A stretch of 36,973 nt of DNA from positions 1 through 36,973 of the forward strand of contig CADCJP010000003.1 of the NCBI GenBank assembly GCA_902801805.1, given 5' to 3'. The translations under genes and the position numbers were made by a program. The notes beneath the pieces are model-generated. The model did no database searches and had not been told where the DNA came from. It saw only the letters and a list, made by a program, of their open reading frames with translations. Shown here one piece after another: positions 3,340 through 31,515 of the stretch. The stretch comes from an uncultured Erysipelotrichaceae bacterium. Lineage in GTDB: Bacteria; Bacillota_I; Bacilli_A; RFN20; CAG-826. Every line of letters starts with the position of its first letter. The first letter of the stretch is position 1.

Positions 3340-3418
3340 AACACTATTAAAAAATCGTCTTTTTTAAAGTTGATTTAAAGTAGCGAGTTTTATATTATTA
3401 ATGGGCACGCTAAAGATT

Positions 3419-4114
3419 ATGAAAATTGTATTAATTAACGGTACTAACCACAAAGGTAGTACATATCACATCGCTAGACAACTAGCGGACAAACTTCAAG
3501 GTGAAACAACAGAATTCTTCTTACCAAGAGATTTTGATGAGTTTTGTTTAGGCTGCACAACTTGCTTTGTTAAAGGCGAAGAGTTTTGTCCACATCATTC
3601 TAAAATCGAAAAGATTACAAAAGCTTTATTAGAAGCTGACGTCATTATTCTTGATAGTCCAGTCTACGTTTATCACGCTAGTGGGGCAATGAAAGCCTTG
3701 TTAGACCATTATGGATACATGTGGATGGCACACCGTCCAGAAGAAGCAATGTTTAAAAAGCAAGGTGTCGTCATTTCTACCGCTGCAGGCGCGGGTACTA
3801 AGTCCACCATGAAGGACATGAAAGATAGCTTATTCTATTGGGGTGTCGCAAGAAACTATGAATTTGGTACACCAGTAGCCGCTACTTCTTGGGAACAAAT
3901 AAGTGAAAAGAAGCTAAAAAAGATTGATAAAGCAACCACGAGAATTGCTAAGAAAATAATTAGAAGAAACGGCAAAGCAAAACCAACTATCGGTGCCAAA
4001 CTATTCTTCTTCCTTATGCATTTGTTGCAAAAGAATGGTTGGAATCCAAAAGATAAAGAATATTGGAAAGAAAAGGGCTGGACTGAAAAGAAACGTCCTT
4101 GGAAGAATAAATAA
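3419..4114 (+). CDS. Flavodoxin-fold NADPH-dependent FMN reductase / iron-sulfur flavoprotein-like
   Basis: A flavodoxin-fold protein of about 231 residues. It opens with MKIVLINGTNHKGST, the phosphate-binding loop of the NADPH-dependent FMN reductase superfamily, and has a later SPVYVYHASGAMKALLDH segment typical of it. Cysteines 43, 46, 49 and 57 form Cx2Cx2Cx7C, the compact cluster motif of iron-sulfur flavoproteins (Isf), so a [4Fe-4S] cluster in addition to FMN is plausible. It probably moves electrons in anaerobic redox metabolism. The ATG at 3419 was chosen because family homology begins there; an in-frame ATG at 3401 would add six residues, and it sits so close to the likely -10 (TATATT, 3391) that it might be upstream of the transcript start. 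The lysine-rich C-terminus is poorly conserved. Confidence 0.8.
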   Translation: MKIVLINGTNHKGSTYHIARQLADKLQGETTEFFLPRDFDEFCLGCTTCFVKGEEFCPHHSKIEKITKALLEADVIILDSPVYVYHASGAMKALLDHYGYMWMAHRPEEAMFKKQGVVISTAAGAGTKSTMKDMKDSLFYWGVARNYEFGTPVAATSWEQISEKKLKKIDKATTRIAKKIIRRNGKAKPTIGAKLFFFLMHLLQKNGWNPKDKEYWKEKGWTEKKRPWKNK

Positions 4115-9351: not shown

Positions 9352-9381
9352 AAAACCCCAGGTTTCAACACTTGGGGTTTT
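9352..9381. terminator. Bidirectional terminator
   Basis: Stem AAAACCCCA (9352-9360) with TGGGGTTTT (9373-9381), loop of 12 bases, followed by further T. It serves the membrane-protein gene on plus and the convergent deiminase gene on minus. Confidence 0.8.
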
Positions 9382-11123
9382 TATTTAACTATGAAGTGGT
9401 GCGGGTCTAAGTTACCACATGATGGATCAACGTTGTGGTTATTCTTAGTGTCACTAGCTTCGATGTAGTATTTCACATCATCGCCTTTATGCAGACCTTC
9501 AAACACAAATGTGTAATTAGTGGTTTCTTTGTATTTGCCCATTGGGCTAGATAGATAACCGCTGTCATTCACCGAATAGTGGATAGTGACATCACTGATA
9601 TCTTCGTTAGCGTATGAAGTCACATTTGTTTTAATCACGTAGCGGTCTTTTAATTCGACTTCACCGTAATAGACTTCACGAGAATCAATGAAGACCATAT
9701 CTTGGTCTGGTACCTCATGTGTTCTACAGTGTAAGGCATCAGTATTTAAGAACTCACGTCCGTAGTAATCATTAGAGGAGAATCCTTCAATACCTTGAAT
9801 GTCATAACCTGGTAAAGCTTCTTGATAAACCTCAATCGCTTTTTGATTATATGTAGCGTTACTACCTAAAGGCATATAGACATGTCCATTAGCAATCAAT
9901 GAGTTAGTGTAAGGGGCAACAGTGCTGCCACCTGGTTCTTCAATACGATAGACGCGGTAGTTATAGCCATAAGCGCACCTAGTGTTCGCTAATTCTTCGG
10001 CTACTTGCTCATAGTATTGATAACGAGAATTACTCTTAGGTAATTTCGCAACGATTATTTTATCAGGTGCGACAATCTTACCCCAGCAGTCAATATGGGC
10101 AATGTAATCACCTTGTGGGTCAATCGTGATAACATAGTTATCCGTGCCTGTATATGTTTGCATCTGTTTTCTGACATTAGCCTCGTTATTACTATTTTCA
10201 GAGACCACTAAATCATCACTAAAAGCGGTGCCTCTTCCATCTTGCATTAGGTTACCACCAGTATGGGTAATTGGCATCTTAGAATAAGGGATATTGAAGT
10301 AATCCGCTAATTTAGAAGGAACAGCGTTTTGTTCATATCTTGGACGATTGTATGTAAAGTCGACAATAGACAATTGTTTTTCTTTGAAAACATAGAATGG
10401 AGAGAAGTCTCTCACCCAATAGCCATAGTCATCATCAATTGGCATATCTAGGAATGTGACGTTATCAACATCAACCCCAGCGTTAGATAAATCGCTTCTT
10501 GCTTGAGTGATACGTGATCTATTTCTGCTATCAGGATTGACTAATAATAAGACTTTATTATCTTTAGCGATAGCTTTATACGCCGTTAATGGCATGTTAT
10601 TTGGATAGCACATCTTGACCATTTCACATGGTTCAAATTCACCAGGCATTCTCAAAGAGAAATCCTTAATGACTTCATAGTCTTTTAATGGATCAACAGG
10701 TGGGATCTCACTTGATGAAGAAGAGCTAGAGGATGAACTACTTATTGATGAAGTAGTGCTGCTAGAAGTCGATGAACTGCTACTAGAAGAACTGCTTGAA
10801 GAGGACGAACTTGAAGACGAACTGCTAGTTGAAGATGAGCTACTAGATACGCTGCTCAAAGAACTAGAGCTACCCGAACTAATAGATGATTGACTACTCG
10901 AACTAGATGAAGAACTAACACTACTAGAAGTTGAACTTGTTGAGGATGTAGTGGAACTTTCTATCTTAGAAGTCGTGCTTTCACTAGCGCTACTTGTGTT
11001 TTCTTCCTTGCTTGAAGTGGTGCTCAAAGAACTAGAAGAAGTGTTTATTGCCCCAACATTACAAGAGGAGAGAATAAACCCAGTTAATACCGCTAATGCA
11101 CTTAAGATACGTCTCTTTTTCAT
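9381..11123 (-). CDS. Lipoprotein peptidylarginine deiminase, Porphyromonas PPAD-like
   Basis: A 580-residue exported enzyme. The signal peptide ends in a lipobox (L18-S-S-C21). A nearly pure serine/threonine linker runs from about 28 to 140. The catalytic domain follows, then a C-terminal Ig-like domain of about 100 residues, which is the layout of P. gingivalis PPAD. Predicted catalytic residues are Asp239 (WVRDF), His343 and Asp345 (HIDCW), Asn407 (YTNS) and Cys466 (ALHCRTHE). Their spacings (104, 64, 59) closely match PPAD Asp130/His236/Asn297/Cys351 (106, 61, 54). Arg260 and Arg262 (YNRPR) correspond to the PPAD arginines that bind a C-terminal arginine carboxylate. It should convert peptidyl arginine, mainly C-terminal, to citrulline plus ammonia outside the cell. 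Agmatine deiminase is the main alternative, but the export signal, Ig domain and ALHCRTHE motif argue against it. A -10 (TATAAT, 11138-11133) lies very near the ATG. Confidence 0.85.
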   Translation of the reverse strand: MKKRRILSALAVLTGFILSSCNVGAINTSSSSLSTTSSKEENTSSASESTTSKIESSTTSSTSSTSSSVSSSSSSSSQSSISSGSSSSLSSVSSSSSSTSSSSSSSSSSSSSSSSSSSTSSSTTSSISSSSSSSSSSSEIPPVDPLKDYEVIKDFSLRMPGEFEPCEMVKMCYPNNMPLTAYKAIAKDNKVLLLVNPDSRNRSRITQARSDLSNAGVDVDNVTFLDMPIDDDYGYWVRDFSPFYVFKEKQLSIVDFTYNRPRYEQNAVPSKLADYFNIPYSKMPITHTGGNLMQDGRGTAFSDDLVVSENSNNEANVRKQMQTYTGTDNYVITIDPQGDYIAHIDCWGKIVAPDKIIVAKLPKSNSRYQYYEQVAEELANTRCAYGYNYRVYRIEEPGGSTVAPYTNSLIANGHVYMPLGSNATYNQKAIEVYQEALPGYDIQGIEGFSSNDYYGREFLNTDALHCRTHEVPDQDMVFIDSREVYYGEVELKDRYVIKTNVTSYANEDISDVTIHYSVNDSGYLSSPMGKYKETTNYTFVFEGLHKGDDVKYYIEASDTKNNHNVDPSCGNLDPHHFIVK

Positions 11124-18232: not shown

Positions 18233-18796
18233 ATGCGTAAAGACTTTGGATCTCAAACATGGCTATGCCCAATGCCAGTCCTCATCATCGGTACATTCAA
18301 CGAAAACAACGAACCAGATGCGATGAACGCCGCCTGGGGTGGTACCTATGATGACAATCAAATCATCATTTGTTTATCATCACATCAAACTACAGACAAC
18401 ATTAGGAATAAGAAAGCCTTCACCGTGGCCTTTGCCACTAAAGAAACAGTGACCGCTAGTGACTATGTTGGTATCGTTTCTTTTAGAAAAGAGAAAGATA
18501 AGATTAAGAAAAGTGGTCTTAAATGTGAAAAGGCTCCACACGTTGATGCTCCTCTCTTCACCGATTACCCATTAACTCTTGAATGCGAATTAGTGGAAAT
18601 CATTAATGAAGGTGAAGGTGGTGGAAACGTCATCGCTAAAATCGTTAACGTGAGTGTGGATGAAAGCATTGTTGAAGACGGACACGTTAATCCAGACAAA
18701 GCCCACTTCTTAGTGTTCGACCCAATCAAAGCCGAATATAAAGAAATTGGTGAGACAGTCGCTAACGCCTTTAGAGAAGGCATGAAACTTAGATAA
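18233..18796 (+). CDS. Flavin reductase-like FMN-binding protein (flavoredoxin type)
   Basis: 187 residues of the flavin-reductase split-barrel family: P-MPVLIIGTFNENNEPDAMNAAWGG is the typical FMN-binding start (residues ~13-37), with TVAFATKETVTASDYVGIVS following. It binds FMN and is likely to transfer electrons in the cytoplasm. AAAGGA (18222-18227) precedes the ATG. It is last in the DUF3737-malY operon, and the convergent recN shares its terminator. Confidence 0.85.
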   Translation: MRKDFGSQTWLCPMPVLIIGTFNENNEPDAMNAAWGGTYDDNQIIICLSSHQTTDNIRNKKAFTVAFATKETVTASDYVGIVSFRKEKDKIKKSGLKCEKAPHVDAPLFTDYPLTLECELVEIINEGEGGGNVIAKIVNVSVDESIVEDGHVNPDKAHFLVFDPIKAEYKEIGETVANAFREGMKLR

Positions 18797-25606: not shown

Positions 25607-26206
25607 ATGAAAATTCCACTTTTACAAGTATTAAGCAAAAAAGAACATAAGCTAGTCAATGGTTATCAAGTAACCAAAAACAGCGTTATTGCCCATGAAG
25701 GAGATAACTGTGAGAACATCGGTATCATCGTCTCTGGTAAAGTCGATATTGTTTCTTATGCCTTCAAAGGTAAAGAGATGTTACTTAACTCTTTAAAAGC
25801 GGGAGATATTTTTGGTTATAACTTAATCTTCTCAAGTGAACCTATCTATCGCGGTGATGTCATCGCTAAAGAAAAATGTGTGATTGCCTTTATCAATAAA
25901 GAGAACTTAATCTTCTTATTACAAAATAACCAAGACTTCTTAAAACTATATTTACAAGCACAATCTGACTTTGGTAAATCTCTCAATGCGAGAATCCAAC
26001 TTTTATCATTCACTAACGCTGAGGAAAGATTGTTCTATTTTGCGAGTAAAAACGATAACGTCATTATCTTTAAAAACGTCACCGCATTAGCTGCTCAAAT
26101 CGGCATTCAAAGAGAAACGTTATCTCGTCTTTTAACGAGTTTAGTAAAGCGCCATCTCATCAAAAAAGAGAAAGGCAAAATTACATTTTTAAAGAAAAGG
26201 CGCTAA
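25607..26206 (+). CDS. Crp/Fnr-family transcription regulator
   Basis: 199 residues: an N-terminal cyclic-nucleotide-binding-type beta-roll (IAHEGDNCENIGIIVSGKVDI ~29-49; GDIFGYN) and a C-terminal Crp helix-turn-helix (NVTALAAQIGIQRETLSRLLTSL). The recognition helix RETLSR keeps the Arg-Glu-x-x-x-Arg that E. coli Crp (R180/E181/R185) uses to read TGTGA, which fits the operator next door. The Arg-Ser of the cAMP phosphate-binding cassette is absent and there is no Fnr-type N-terminal cysteine cluster, so the signal is probably neither cAMP nor an Fnr-type iron-sulfur cluster. It converges with folD with a 1-bp gap. Confidence 0.88.
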   Translation: MKIPLLQVLSKKEHKLVNGYQVTKNSVIAHEGDNCENIGIIVSGKVDIVSYAFKGKEMLLNSLKAGDIFGYNLIFSSEPIYRGDVIAKEKCVIAFINKENLIFLLQNNQDFLKLYLQAQSDFGKSLNARIQLLSFTNAEERLFYFASKNDNVIIFKNVTALAAQIGIQRETLSRLLTSLVKRHLIKKEKGKITFLKKRR

Positions 26207-27541: not shown

Positions 27542-28234
27542 ATGGCAATTGTAGGAATTGATAAACTCTCCTTATTAGATTACGAAGACAAAGTTTCGGT
27601 CGTCTTATTCTCACAGGCGTGCAATATGCGCTGCCCATTTTGTCATAATGGAGATGCTGTCTTAGGCGCTTCTAAAGAAGACGAAATTGACTTCAATGAA
27701 ATACTTGAATTTTTAAAGACCAGAAAGGGTCTTATTGACGCGGTTGTTTTCAGCGGTGGAGAGCCGACAATGGAACAAGATTTGAAGGTTAAGATAAAAG
27801 CGGTGCGTGAACTTGGTTTTTTAATCAAGTTAGACACCAATGGTACTAACCCAGAAATCGTGGAAAATCTTCTTGATGAAGGGCTCGTCGATTACGTCGC
27901 GATGGATATCAAAAACTGTCCAAACTTATACGCTGAAACATGTGGCTTAAAGTTCATCAATGTTGAGAATATTAAAAAGAGCATTTCCATTATTATGAGT
28001 AAAGCTCCTGATTATGAATTTAGAACCACATTAGTTAAAGAGTTTCATGAAAGAATGGACTATGAAGCTTTCCTTAATTTGATTAAAGGTGCGAAGCGCT
28101 TATTCCTTCAAAAGTTTGTGGACCGCGAAGGCTGCATTAAAAAAGGCCTCCACGAAGTGAGTATCGAAGAGGCCAATAAGTTAAGAGATTATCTCATAAC
28201 CGGCATCAAAGAAGTTACTTTGCGCGGTTATTAA
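27542..28234 (+). CDS. nrdG: Anaerobic ribonucleotide reductase activating protein (radical SAM)
   Basis: 230 residues of the NrdG2 type of radical SAM activase: CNMRCPFCHN supplies the CxxxCxxC cluster ligands (Cys27, Cys31, Cys34), followed by VFSGGEPTME (the SAM-binding GGE motif) and VDYVAMDIKN. It cleaves SAM to generate the glycyl radical on NrdD; the target (Gly664) is in the gene 900 bp away on the other strand. It converges with the thioredoxin-reductase-like gene and overlaps it by 20 bp at the 3' ends. Confidence 0.9.
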   Translation: MAIVGIDKLSLLDYEDKVSVVLFSQACNMRCPFCHNGDAVLGASKEDEIDFNEILEFLKTRKGLIDAVVFSGGEPTMEQDLKVKIKAVRELGFLIKLDTNGTNPEIVENLLDEGLVDYVAMDIKNCPNLYAETCGLKFINVENIKKSISIIMSKAPDYEFRTTLVKEFHERMDYEAFLNLIKGAKRLFLQKFVDREGCIKKGLHEVSIEEANKLRDYLITGIKEVTLRGY

Positions 28235-29135
28235 GCATTAAATACTTATCGATAAAGACGCTAGCGATAGAGGCATCACCAATTGCGGAAGCCACTTGAC
28301 GGACGTCTTTTTTTCTTGTGTCGCCTACGGCGAATAAACCAGGAAGAGATGTTTCCATCTTTTCGTTAGTAATAATGAAGCCGTGATCATCAGTTTGCAC
28401 TAAGGATTTGAACAAATCGTTTTGTGGCACTTGACCAATAGCAACGAAGACGTTATTTGTTGGATATTCATGAATTGAGTGATCCATGGTGTTTTCAAAA
28501 CGGAGACCTGCTAATTCATTTTGTCCTAAATAAGCGACAAGATTCATGTTATGGGTGATATGGATGTTATCTTTTTGTCTTAAACGATCAATGAGAATTT
28601 GATCGGCAAAGAATCTATCAAAAAGAGTGAACATATAAACATTGGAACATGTTTGGGCAAGCATGAGAGCGTACTGTAAAGCTGTATTCGCATCACCGAT
28701 TAAATAGACATCTTTATCTTTATAGAATGCGCCATCACAGACTGCGCAGAAAGAGATACCTTTGCCAACGAATTCATCTTCGTTAGGAAGACCCATTTTA
28801 CGGTGCTTAACGCCATTAGCTAAGACAACAGCGTGTGCTTGATATGTATGGTAATTTGTGGTGACTTCAAAATCGTCATTAACTTTGAGAATTCTTTGGA
28901 CTTCTTCGAGTTCAAATTTAGCCCCTAAATCGAGGATTTGTTCGAAGAGATTACCAGCGAAATCTAAGCCAGAAATTTCCTTTGTGCCTGGAATATTTTC
29001 GACACGTGGAGAATTAGCGATTTGACCACCGAAGTTTTCTTTTTCTAAGATGAGGACTGAGCGACCGGCTCTGAGCAAGTTCAGAGCCACACTCATCCCT
29101 GCGGGACCACCGCCAACAATAATGACATCTACCAT
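28215..29135 (-). CDS. Thioredoxin-reductase-like flavoprotein with altered NADPH motif
   Basis: 306 residues of the low-molecular-weight thioredoxin reductase family: FAD motif VGGGPAGMSVA (N-terminus), redox-active CAVCD (Cys130, Cys133) and the C-terminal FAD motif LFAVGDTRKK. In the NAD(P) domain the usual GGGNTA is GDANTA (147-152) and HRRDGFR aligns with TLFDRFF (170-176), so all three arginines that bind the 2'-phosphate of NADPH are gone and the dinucleotide loop has lost a glycine. NADPH use is therefore unlikely; ferredoxin-dependent flavin thioredoxin reductases are known relatives with lost NADPH motifs, and NADH is another option. It starts one base after the nrdD stop and probably reduces the glutaredoxin domain of NrdD. 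Confidence 0.88.
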   Translation of the reverse strand: MVDVIIVGGGPAGMSVALNLLRAGRSVLILEKENFGGQIANSPRVENIPGTKEISGLDFAGNLFEQILDLGAKFELEEVQRILKVNDDFEVTTNYHTYQAHAVVLANGVKHRKMGLPNEDEFVGKGISFCAVCDGAFYKDKDVYLIGDANTALQYALMLAQTCSNVYMFTLFDRFFADQILIDRLRQKDNIHITHNMNLVAYLGQNELAGLRFENTMDHSIHEYPTNNVFVAIGQVPQNDLFKSLVQTDDHGFIITNEKMETSLPGLFAVGDTRKKDVRQVASAIGDASIASVFIDKYLMLNNRAK

Positions 29136-29136
29136 A

Positions 29137-31515
29137 TTAGTTTAAGCTTTCGATGTAACCTTTAATGTTGCTAGCGTTTTCAAAGACGTCGTTTGTGCCA
29201 TCGCCTTTTGGAACGATTAATGTTGGAGCTTTTCTAACACCAAATGCTTTGGTTTGATCAGCGTTTTCTTCAGCATCGACGACACTGTATTTGATACCAG
29301 CTTTGTCTAAGAGCATCTTAGCCATCTTGCAGTTTGGACATGTCTTTGTGGCGAATAATAAGATTTCGTTTGCGACAATCTTCTCTTCTTCATCACATTC
29401 ATCTTGGCTGCCTAAAACGTCAGTAATCTTGTGTGTGAGTTTAGATTTAGCAGGTTCATAGACTTTACGGTGTTGGAATTCCTCGGTCTTACCATCATTC
29501 CAGTTTTGAACTGGTCTATAGTAACCAGTAATACGGGAATAGACTTCAGTTCTCTTACCACATTTTGGACAGACATATTGTTCACCAGTGATATAACCGT
29601 GGTCTTTACATACAGAGTATGTAGGAGACATTGTGTAATATGGGATGTGGTAGTTTTCTGCGATCTTTCTCACCAGATTCATACAGGATTTCCAGCTTGG
29701 TAACTTTTGACCTAAGAAGCAGTGGAAGACTGTACCAGAGGTGTATAAAGTTTGTAAACCATCTTGGATATCAAGAGCTTTGTAGATATCTTCTGTATAA
29801 CCAACTGGTAAGTGAGAAGAGTTGGTGTAGTATGGTGTTCTACCATTTTCAGAAGCAGTAATGATATCTGGATATAAAGCTTTATCGTGTTTAGCTAAAC
29901 GATAAGCAGTGGATTCTGCTGGTGTGGCTTCTAAGTTATATAAGTCACCATATAATTCTTGATAATCAGATAATTTGTTTCTCATGTGATTGAGAACATC
30001 TTTGGTGAATTGGATAGCTTCTGGATTTGTTAAGTCTTTTCTTAACCAACGAGCGTTTAAGCAAGCTTCGTTCATACCGACTAAACCAATAGTGGAGAAG
30101 TGGTTATTGAAGTTACCTAAGTATCTCTTGGTGTATGGATATAAGCCAGCTTCCATTAATGTGGTAATGGTGTTACGTTTCACTTTAAGTGAACGGGCAC
30201 TGATATCCATGATGTGATCTAATCTTCTATAGAAGTCTTCAGCGTCTGTGGCTAAATAAGCAATTCTTGGCATGTTGATTGTAACAACGCCGATAGAACC
30301 TGTAGATTCACCAGAACCGAAGAAACCACCAGATTTCTTTCTTAATTCTCTTAAGTCAAGTCTTAAACGGCAGCACATACTTCTAACATCACTTGGTTCC
30401 ATATCGGAGTTGATGTAGTTGGAGAAGTATGGTGTACCATATTTCGCGGTCATTTCGAATAAGAGTTTATTGTTTTCTGTTTCTTCCCAGTCGAATGTAC
30501 GAGTAATGGAGTAAGTTGGGATTGGGTATTGGAAACCACGGCCATTCGCGTCACCTTCAATCATGATTTCGATAAAGGCTTTATTGACCATTGCCATTTC
30601 TTCAACACAGTCTTTGTACTTGAAGTCCATTTCTTTGCCACCCACTAAACAGTTGAGTTCGGCCATATCGTTTGGCACAACCCAGTCTAAGGTGATGTTG
30701 GTGAATGGAGCTTGTGTACCCCAACGTGATGGTGTGTTAACACCATAAATGAAGGATTGGATACATTGTTTAACTTCTTTATATGTTAAGTGATCGACTT
30801 TAACAAATGGTGCTAAGTATGTATCGAATGAGGAGAAGGCTTGAGCGCCTGCCCATTCGTTTTGCATAATGCCTAAGAAGTTAACCATTTGATTACAAAG
30901 AGTGCTTAAGTGGTTTGCTGGTGAGGAAGTAATTTTACCAGGAACACCGCCTAAACCTTCTTGAATTAATTGCTTTAATGACCAACCAGCACAGTAACCT
31001 GTGAGCATGGATAAGTCGTGGATGTGGATTTCAGCGTTTCTATGAGCGTTACCAATTTCGTCATCATAGACTTCACTTAACCAGTAATTAGCGGTAACAG
31101 CGCCGCTGTTAGACAAAATAAGACCACCAACGGAATATGTCACGGTACTATTTTCTTTAACGCGCCAGTCGTTAATTTTTAAATAGTTATCAACAACATT
31201 CTTATAGTTTAAGTTTGTTTCTTTAATATCACGTAAGTTTTGGTGTTGCTTACGATAAATAATATAGGAACGCGCGACATCGACATAACCAGCTTGGATT
31301 AAGACGATTTCAACGGAGTCTTGGACATCTTCAATACCGATGGTGTCATTGACGACTTTGCGATTAAAATCACTGGTTACTCTGAGAGCGAGCATTTCAA
31401 TGATGTCATGATTATAGAATTTGTGTTCCGCCATGAAAGCTTTTTCAATAGCGTTCTCAATTTTGGAAATATCGAATTCTTCAATATTGCCATCTCTTTT
31501 TTTAATTCTGAGCAT
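29137..31515 (-). CDS. nrdD: Anaerobic (class III) ribonucleotide reductase with fused glutaredoxin-like domain
   Basis: 792 residues. An N-terminal ATP-cone (LRIKKRDGNIEEFDISKIE onward, to ~95) precedes the NrdD barrel; ligands Cys636, His639, Cys649 and Cys652 form the zinc site, and Gly664 in SRITGYYRP is the predicted glycyl radical. After a linker, residues ~715-792 form a glutaredoxin/NrdH-like domain with redox-active TCPNC (Cys726, Cys729) and the cis-proline region KAPTLIVP. It reduces NTPs to dNTPs under anaerobic conditions. A fused redoxin plus an adjacent reductase suggests electrons come from a thiol system, as in the thioredoxin-using NrdD group, rather than formate. Start: AAGGAGAG nine bases before ATG. 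Confidence 0.95.
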   Translation of the reverse strand: MLRIKKRDGNIEEFDISKIENAIEKAFMAEHKFYNHDIIEMLALRVTSDFNRKVVNDTIGIEDVQDSVEIVLIQAGYVDVARSYIIYRKQHQNLRDIKETNLNYKNVVDNYLKINDWRVKENSTVTYSVGGLILSNSGAVTANYWLSEVYDDEIGNAHRNAEIHIHDLSMLTGYCAGWSLKQLIQEGLGGVPGKITSSPANHLSTLCNQMVNFLGIMQNEWAGAQAFSSFDTYLAPFVKVDHLTYKEVKQCIQSFIYGVNTPSRWGTQAPFTNITLDWVVPNDMAELNCLVGGKEMDFKYKDCVEEMAMVNKAFIEIMIEGDANGRGFQYPIPTYSITRTFDWEETENNKLLFEMTAKYGTPYFSNYINSDMEPSDVRSMCCRLRLDLRELRKKSGGFFGSGESTGSIGVVTINMPRIAYLATDAEDFYRRLDHIMDISARSLKVKRNTITTLMEAGLYPYTKRYLGNFNNHFSTIGLVGMNEACLNARWLRKDLTNPEAIQFTKDVLNHMRNKLSDYQELYGDLYNLEATPAESTAYRLAKHDKALYPDIITASENGRTPYYTNSSHLPVGYTEDIYKALDIQDGLQTLYTSGTVFHCFLGQKLPSWKSCMNLVRKIAENYHIPYYTMSPTYSVCKDHGYITGEQYVCPKCGKRTEVYSRITGYYRPVQNWNDGKTEEFQHRKVYEPAKSKLTHKITDVLGSQDECDEEEKIVANEILLFATKTCPNCKMAKMLLDKAGIKYSVVDAEENADQTKAFGVRKAPTLIVPKGDGTNDVFENASNIKGYIESLN

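Follow-up and report, generated by a model that had tools for sequence, protein, structure and literature searches.

Class III ribonucleotide reductases (RNRs) are known to be reduced by formate, by thioredoxin or, in one methanogen, by ferredoxin-fed NrdH; the last system, that of Methanosarcina barkeri, reportedly pairs a free-standing NrdH with an Fe-S ferredoxin disulfide reductase. Redoxin-fed NrdD proteins and thioredoxin reductases without NADPH motifs (FFTR, DvTRi and others) are known as well. As far as the excerpts of the papers cited here go, FFTRs draw electrons from ferredoxin, the FAD of the Gloeobacter enzyme having a potential of −448 mV (PMC12796991), clostridial FFTRs have been described (PMC10880999), and DvTRi is an NAD(P)H-independent enzyme, its donor reported as unknown, in which HRRD is lost and GGGxxAxE is degenerate (PMC5627308). 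In addition, NrdDs that combine Met, Glu and a double Cys are regarded as equipped to be reduced by formate or by a redoxin (PMC9669993). Here, a stretch of 36,973 nucleotides from an uncultured Erysipelotrichaceae bacterium (contig CADCJP010000003.1; hereafter the window) was analysed, in which the gene of an NrdD with a fused glutaredoxin (Grx) is followed directly by the gene of a thioredoxin-reductase-like flavoprotein without NADPH motifs. With a confidence slightly above even, this reductase is taken to be a dedicated electron feeder of the adjacent class III RNR, with a donor other than NADPH, most likely ferredoxin or flavodoxin.

The reductase (306 aa; 28,215–29,135, minus strand) was delimited as an open reading frame (ORF) and by domain and motif comparison. 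Its FAD-binding GGGPAG (aa 8–13; 29,097–29,114, minus strand) and redox-active C130-A-V-C133 (28,737–28,748, minus strand) were identified in the sequence and in the alignment with homologues, the latter also in the alignment with E. coli TrxB. Thus, the CxxC and FAD site of the NADPH-dependent thioredoxin reductases (TIGR01292) are present (PF07992, 138.9 bits). Their GGGxxA and HRRxxxR motifs are absent, and the TIGR01292 score of 299.7 bits is below the curated cut-off of 343.45. In the structure match and in the homologue and TrxB alignments, GDANTA (aa 147–152; 28,680–28,697, minus strand) replaces GGGNTA, and TLFDRFF (aa 170–176; 28,608–28,628, minus strand) replaces HRRDxFR. E. coli HRRDGFR aligns with T170-L-F-D-R-F-F176, so that R177, R178 and R182 correspond to L, F and F. 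Since all three arginines and two of the three glycines are gone and an Asp stands in the pyrophosphate loop, NADPH is an unlikely donor. The protein has a predicted thioredoxin-reductase fold and about 35% identity to NADPH enzymes, and the Rossmann-like strand-helix-strand is intact in its model. "Thioredoxin reductase (NADPH)", the name given to close homologues by one source, is probably wrong here.

The nrdD gene (29,137–31,515, minus strand) encodes a protein of 792 aa which scored 1122.3 bits against NF006126/PRK08270 (cut-off 548). It contains an ATP-cone (residues 3–92), an NRDD domain (121–686) and a glutaredoxin domain (718–768; PF00462, 34.7 bits, cut-off 22.9), the last with a KAPTL loop and with CPNC (Cys726 and Cys729; 29,329–29,340, minus strand) found in the sequence, the domain search and the alignment. 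Together with the NRDD domain and the ATP-cone, the class III characteristics include the finger-loop Cys and the glycyl-radical motif. The finger loop reads M380-C-C-R383 (30,367–30,378, minus strand; sequence and alignment). Glu529 in NLEATPAE (29,929–29,931, minus strand) aligns with a Glu of the Thermotoga maritima enzyme and is the probable proton source; the meaning of both elements is taken from excerpts of PMC9669993. Gly664 in SRITGYYRP (29,524–29,526, minus strand) is, judging by the family alignment, the probable glycyl-radical site. Alignment of 96 NrdDs, that of the window and 95 out of 105 locus proteins, showed the MCCR finger loop in each of them, together with the betaA Cys and the Glu.

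A single base (29,136) lies between the nrdD stop and the reductase ATG. The gene nrdG2 (27,542–28,234, plus strand; TIGR02495, 198.7 bits, cut-off 131.15), encoding the radical-SAM activase of NrdD, lies in convergent orientation, with a 20-bp overlap into the end of the reductase gene. The single-base gap, the convergent nrdG, the CPNC redoxin domain, the intact CAVCD next to GDANTA and TLFDRFF, and the absence of the three NADPH-selecting arginines had all been described in a first-pass annotation of this DNA, and the ORFs, the domain searches and the TrxB alignment bear them out.

The altered motifs are not peculiar to the window gene, the motif loss being a clade-wide trait. In 14 homologues with 65–98% identity, GD[AG]N[TS]A and TLF[DN]xFF[AG]D were retained. 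A comparison with the nearest genome locus gave dN 0.144 and dS 1.60 (dS near saturation), which points to purifying selection. Linkage to nrdD was evaluated in two samples. The first comprised 80 genome loci picked for similarity to the window. The reductase was found within 400 bp behind NrdD-Grx in 67 of them, and three types were distinguished by motif: GGGNSA/QNL (44 loci), GDxNxA/LFD (12) and GGGxxA/HRR (11). An HRR-type reductase in this slot is that of Extibacter muris (L054). The 13 loci without such linkage included nine QNL, three HRR and one other; among them is counted a locus (L018) that starts 77 bp from a contig end, its neighbour not being visible. The second sample, which was not selected by similarity, consisted of 117 genomes of one order. 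NrdD was matched in 70, and 46 of these 70 had a same-strand reductase match that followed it at a distance of no more than 100 bp. Motif assignment covered the 49 top-ranking reductase matches plus one of lower rank (G048): the 46 linked genomes contained 43 GDxNxA/LFDxF, three GGGNSA/QNL and no HRR, and the four unlinked matches (three next best and the lower one) had GGG in all cases (once as GGGNSS) and HRR in two. Note that in two linked genomes (G121, G095) the NrdD piece is partial, and that a 72-residue reductase fragment behind NrdD in G032 was not counted.

Besides the window, 54 of the 54 proteins found with the LFD motif stand behind NrdD-Grx (12 and 43 from the two samples, one genome being common to both). 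The altered motifs are thus more than chance, being kept with small variants in the 14 homologues and in these 54 further genomes. The first-pass annotation had allowed that its coupling of the two genes would be weakened if the pair were never adjacent elsewhere; adjacency proved to be kept in dozens of genomes, and the genomic data support a reductase dedicated to the NrdD-Grx fusion. The fusion itself was deduced across loci from equal gaps of NrdD and Grx to the reductase and from the NrdD alignment. A triple fusion of NrdD, Grx and reductase was not met in the loci read, a search aimed at one not having been part of the work. Among the 76 NrdDs labelled linked in the alignment (the window and L001–L080/L141–L156 with NrdD longer than 650 aa, some not directly adjacent), the Grx motif was CPNC in 74 and CPKC in two. 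The Grx domain was also kept in same-order NrdDs with no reductase counted directly behind (L161–L179), in some as CSNC, CQNC, CANC or CPKC.

Phylogenetic trees of the reductases were computed from 112-row and 53-row sets with the motif columns removed; a protein with HRSDKF (L160) carries the label HRR in counts and trees. It was revealed that the NrdD-linked reductases group on one branch (support 98 for 112 rows; 99/96 for 53 rows), inside which the LFD type forms one sub-branch (93; 90/95; 88% of 200 bootstrap trees). The branch is not exclusive: it also holds a small number of QNL and HRR proteins without linkage to NrdD. Most simply, in trees whose root was not inferred, HRR would be ancestral and lost in place, since HRR types occur both within the NrdD-linked branch and among the outside enzymes. 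In Clostridia, the slot behind NrdD is filled by HRR, QNL or LFD types; the partner thus stayed and the donor site changed. A large group of NrdD-linked reductases from clostridial loci (among L014–L080) keeps GGGNSA and has HRR replaced by QNLxxxTGE.

The second reductases of the same genomes, as far as they were entered in the trees, fall outside the NrdD-linked branch. Their motifs were read in nine LFD-type genomes, leaving out G006, G007 and G012: HRR was present in G001–G003, and other motif-less versions were present in G004, G005 and G008–G011. Accordingly, the nearest relative of the window probably still uses NADPH for general thiol reduction, not by the NrdD-linked reductase, and the other LFD genomes may have abandoned NADPH for both reductases. 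The motif-less second copies (L104, L108, L090, L103, L110, L093) form two sets outside the NrdD-linked branch and, because these unlinked enzymes sit at two separate places in the tree, the donor was probably changed on more than one occasion. Their possible identity as FFTRs was considered: two of them (L110, L103) were compared with solved structures and best matched other thioredoxin reductases, not 6gna.

The loss of the NADPH signature makes another electron source, such as ferredoxin, probable. We infer the following chain, the identity of the donor included. Pyruvate:ferredoxin oxidoreductase (PFOR) would reduce ferredoxin (or flavodoxin), and this carrier would pass electrons to the FAD of the reductase, from which they would move to Cys130-Cys133 and then to Cys726-Cys729 of the fused glutaredoxin; the Grx domain would re-reduce the active-site disulfide of NrdD (Cys175 and a finger-loop cysteine) after each turnover. 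This path is proposed because the fused Grx is kept, pyruvate-formate lyase (PFL) is rare and PFOR is frequent. The conserved Grx motif in the linked-set NrdDs argues for a redoxin as the NrdD reductant. PFL matches were found in three of 46 linked genomes, six of 24 genomes with unlinked NrdD and 19 of 47 without an NrdD match (linked versus all other genomes, p = 0.0003, kinship not corrected). PFOR was matched in 112 of 117 genomes of the order, including 44 of the 46 linked ones. The order of steps from donor through FAD and the two cysteine pairs to NrdD, already suggested in the first-pass annotation, fits the anatomy of the proteins; its description of the chain as self-contained does not stand, as an outside donor is required.

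A number of observations weigh against the ferredoxin-fed chain. PFOR presence says little about the reductase, being near-universal in the order, and the PFL contrast between linked and unlinked NrdD genomes is weak (p = 0.054, kinship not corrected). The Met of MCCR is compatible with formate, according to excerpts of PMC9669993. GDGN, found in 11 of 55 LFD-type proteins, still fits GxGxxA, and HRR was kept in three and absent in six of the nine second reductases mentioned above. A scan for C..C..C...C in 28 loci and the window (L001–L011 and L015, 12 LFD; L141–L156, 13 LFD and three QNL) revealed a small ferredoxin gene near just one of the 28 loci (L011). As many as 24 of the 70 NrdD genomes have no reductase counted behind NrdD, although at least four of these NrdDs (G090, G092, G096, G122) are fragmented or border on a contig end. 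The Grx domain is present in 19 of 20 fetched NrdDs lacking a counted reductase neighbour, and so it can dispense with this neighbour. Mirror-tree distances of reductase and Grx, compared over 76 rows, correlated weakly (r 0.51, falling to a partial 0.20 once the NrdD core was taken into account). In addition, the relatives are mostly metagenome-assembled genomes (MAGs), the completeness of the surveyed genomes not being stated.

The alternative that survives best, although unlikely, is that NADH feeds the same chain, having been swapped for NADPH when HRR was lost. NADH is available in a fermenting anaerobe, and the intact Rossmann-like element of the model, the GDGN proteins and the QNL relatives, which retain GGGxxA, would be consistent with its binding. 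However, the window protein has G-D-A, and Asp stands at the second position of the GxGxxA site in all 55 LFD-type proteins. E. coli AhpF, an NADH enzyme, keeps GGG in the alignment and has an acidic residue (Glu) opposite Thr170 of the window protein. On these residues NADH is disfavoured, and less likely than had been implied when the first-pass annotation named it beside ferredoxin. DvTRi, in which HRR is likewise lost, accepts neither NADH nor NADPH, as stated in excerpts of PMC5627308.

Slightly less likely still, formate may reduce NrdD directly, as in E. coli, Grx and the reductase just rescuing oxidised NrdD or serving other proteins. The finger-loop Met, tied to formate use in excerpts of PMC9669993, and its combination with Glu and the double Cys suit this. 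It is opposed by the scarcity of PFL in linked genomes (the search being limited to PFL as the formate source), by the CPNC or CPKC of every linked-set NrdD and by the reductase directly behind NrdD in 46 of 70 genomes. An ordinary housekeeping thioredoxin reductase, beside nrdD by chance and binding NADPH through other residues, would agree with the fold and the identity to NADPH enzymes, but is highly improbable given the 54 of 54 LFD relatives behind NrdD-Grx, the further reductases in the same genomes and the separate branches of those entered in the trees.

Several observations concern possible partners and the surroundings of the locus. Among the 80 first loci, L011 was again the only one with a clear small ferredoxin gene (L011:1451–1651; about 60 codons, CIGCGMCEGVCP; open frame of 67 aa), which precedes nrdD-Grx by about 330 bp in the same orientation. 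Between the two genes lies a palindrome, ccactatatattgtgt, that resembles an NrdR box. Downstream of an NrdD-linked HRR-type reductase in a Lachnospiraceae MAG, a 531-aa stop-to-stop frame with CxxCxxCxxxC begins after about 20 bp (L047:2483–4075) and might encode a partner oxidoreductase. Net charge was tried as a sign of ferredoxin docking and was uninformative (means: LFD −10.9, HRR −10.4, QNL −15.8). In the window, a Crp/Fnr-type regulator is encoded near the nrd genes (25,607–26,206, plus strand), and oxygen or redox control may be possible; the host is probably anaerobic. Other window genes encode an NADPH-dependent FMN reductase family protein (3401–4114, plus strand), a flavin-reductase-like protein (18,233–18,796, plus strand) and a 580-aa protein of the Porphyromonas-type peptidyl-arginine deiminase family (9381–11,123, minus strand; PF04371 at 158–472). 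The Rfam search of the window revealed two tRNAs and nothing else, and the scan of the window for promoters and terminators showed no excess over shuffled sequence.

More generally, we suggest tentatively, at just under even confidence, that a private flavoprotein derived from an NADPH thioredoxin reductase, present in fermenting Bacilli and in part of the Clostridia, passes low-potential ferredoxin or flavodoxin electrons solely to Grx-NrdD, its donor site having been rewritten at least twice (QNL, LFD) with the partner fixed. If true, this would be a further, apparently undescribed way of fuelling anaerobic DNA-precursor synthesis. A literature search of titles and abstract openings, most subscription papers being outside its coverage, revealed nothing on a reductase that is linked to NrdD and lacks NADPH motifs, and nothing on an NrdD with a fused Grx. 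As 43 of the 46 linked genomes gave no PFL match, the pair bears on what reduces class III RNR in such anaerobes, and it renders this question testable with two purified proteins. The HRR, QNL and LFD versions in one gene slot also offer a natural series for donor change in a flavoenzyme.

A comparison with the described systems indicated partial similarity to each. For the structural comparison, the entries 6gna–6gnd are presumably Clostridium FFTRs, 5n0j presumably a Gloeobacter FFTR, and 5nii is taken to be DvTRi of Desulfovibrio vulgaris. Like FFTRs, the window reductase is a flavoprotein resembling thioredoxin reductase that has CxxC but lacks the NAD(P)H motifs, of a kind found in anaerobic Firmicutes. 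Unlike them, it is tied to NrdD-Grx and is closer to the NADPH-type 7aaw (205 bits) than to 6gna (116 bits over a chain part about 20 residues shorter), and 6gna was not among the 50 matches listed. DvTRi resembles it in the lost HRRD and the degenerate GGG motif; however, TRi, called an isolated reductase, has TQ/NGK at the HRRD place (excerpts of PMC5627308), and the window protein differs in its TLFD and its linkage to nrdD. On its motifs, therefore, the window reductase is not a TRi.

The NrdD also differs from its closest counterparts. In Facklamia ignava, glutaredoxin is likewise fused to an RNR subunit as reductant, but at the N-terminus of a class I radical subunit, NrdB (excerpts of PMC6187632). 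The thioredoxin-dependent NrdDs of Neisseria bacilliformis and T. maritima share the double-cysteine finger loop, the Glu and a redoxin reductant, the donor chain of the window being a proposal; they have SCCR without Met, whereas the window has MCCR. The T. maritima chain of known structure (651 aa) aligns with the window NrdD no further than residue 687 and hence has no such Grx. According to excerpts of PMC9669993, the redoxin-only NrdD2 has a double Cys and Glu without Met, and NrdD3 has QCCR/A with neither Met nor Glu; with MCCR and Glu529, the window NrdD corresponds to neither. The M. barkeri system (NrdD3) is similar in that a glutaredoxin-like protein feeds NrdD with a ferredoxin-linked reductase upstream, which for the window is proposed. 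Where M. barkeri reportedly has a separate NrdH and an Fe-S enzyme, the window has a fused Grx and a flavoprotein.

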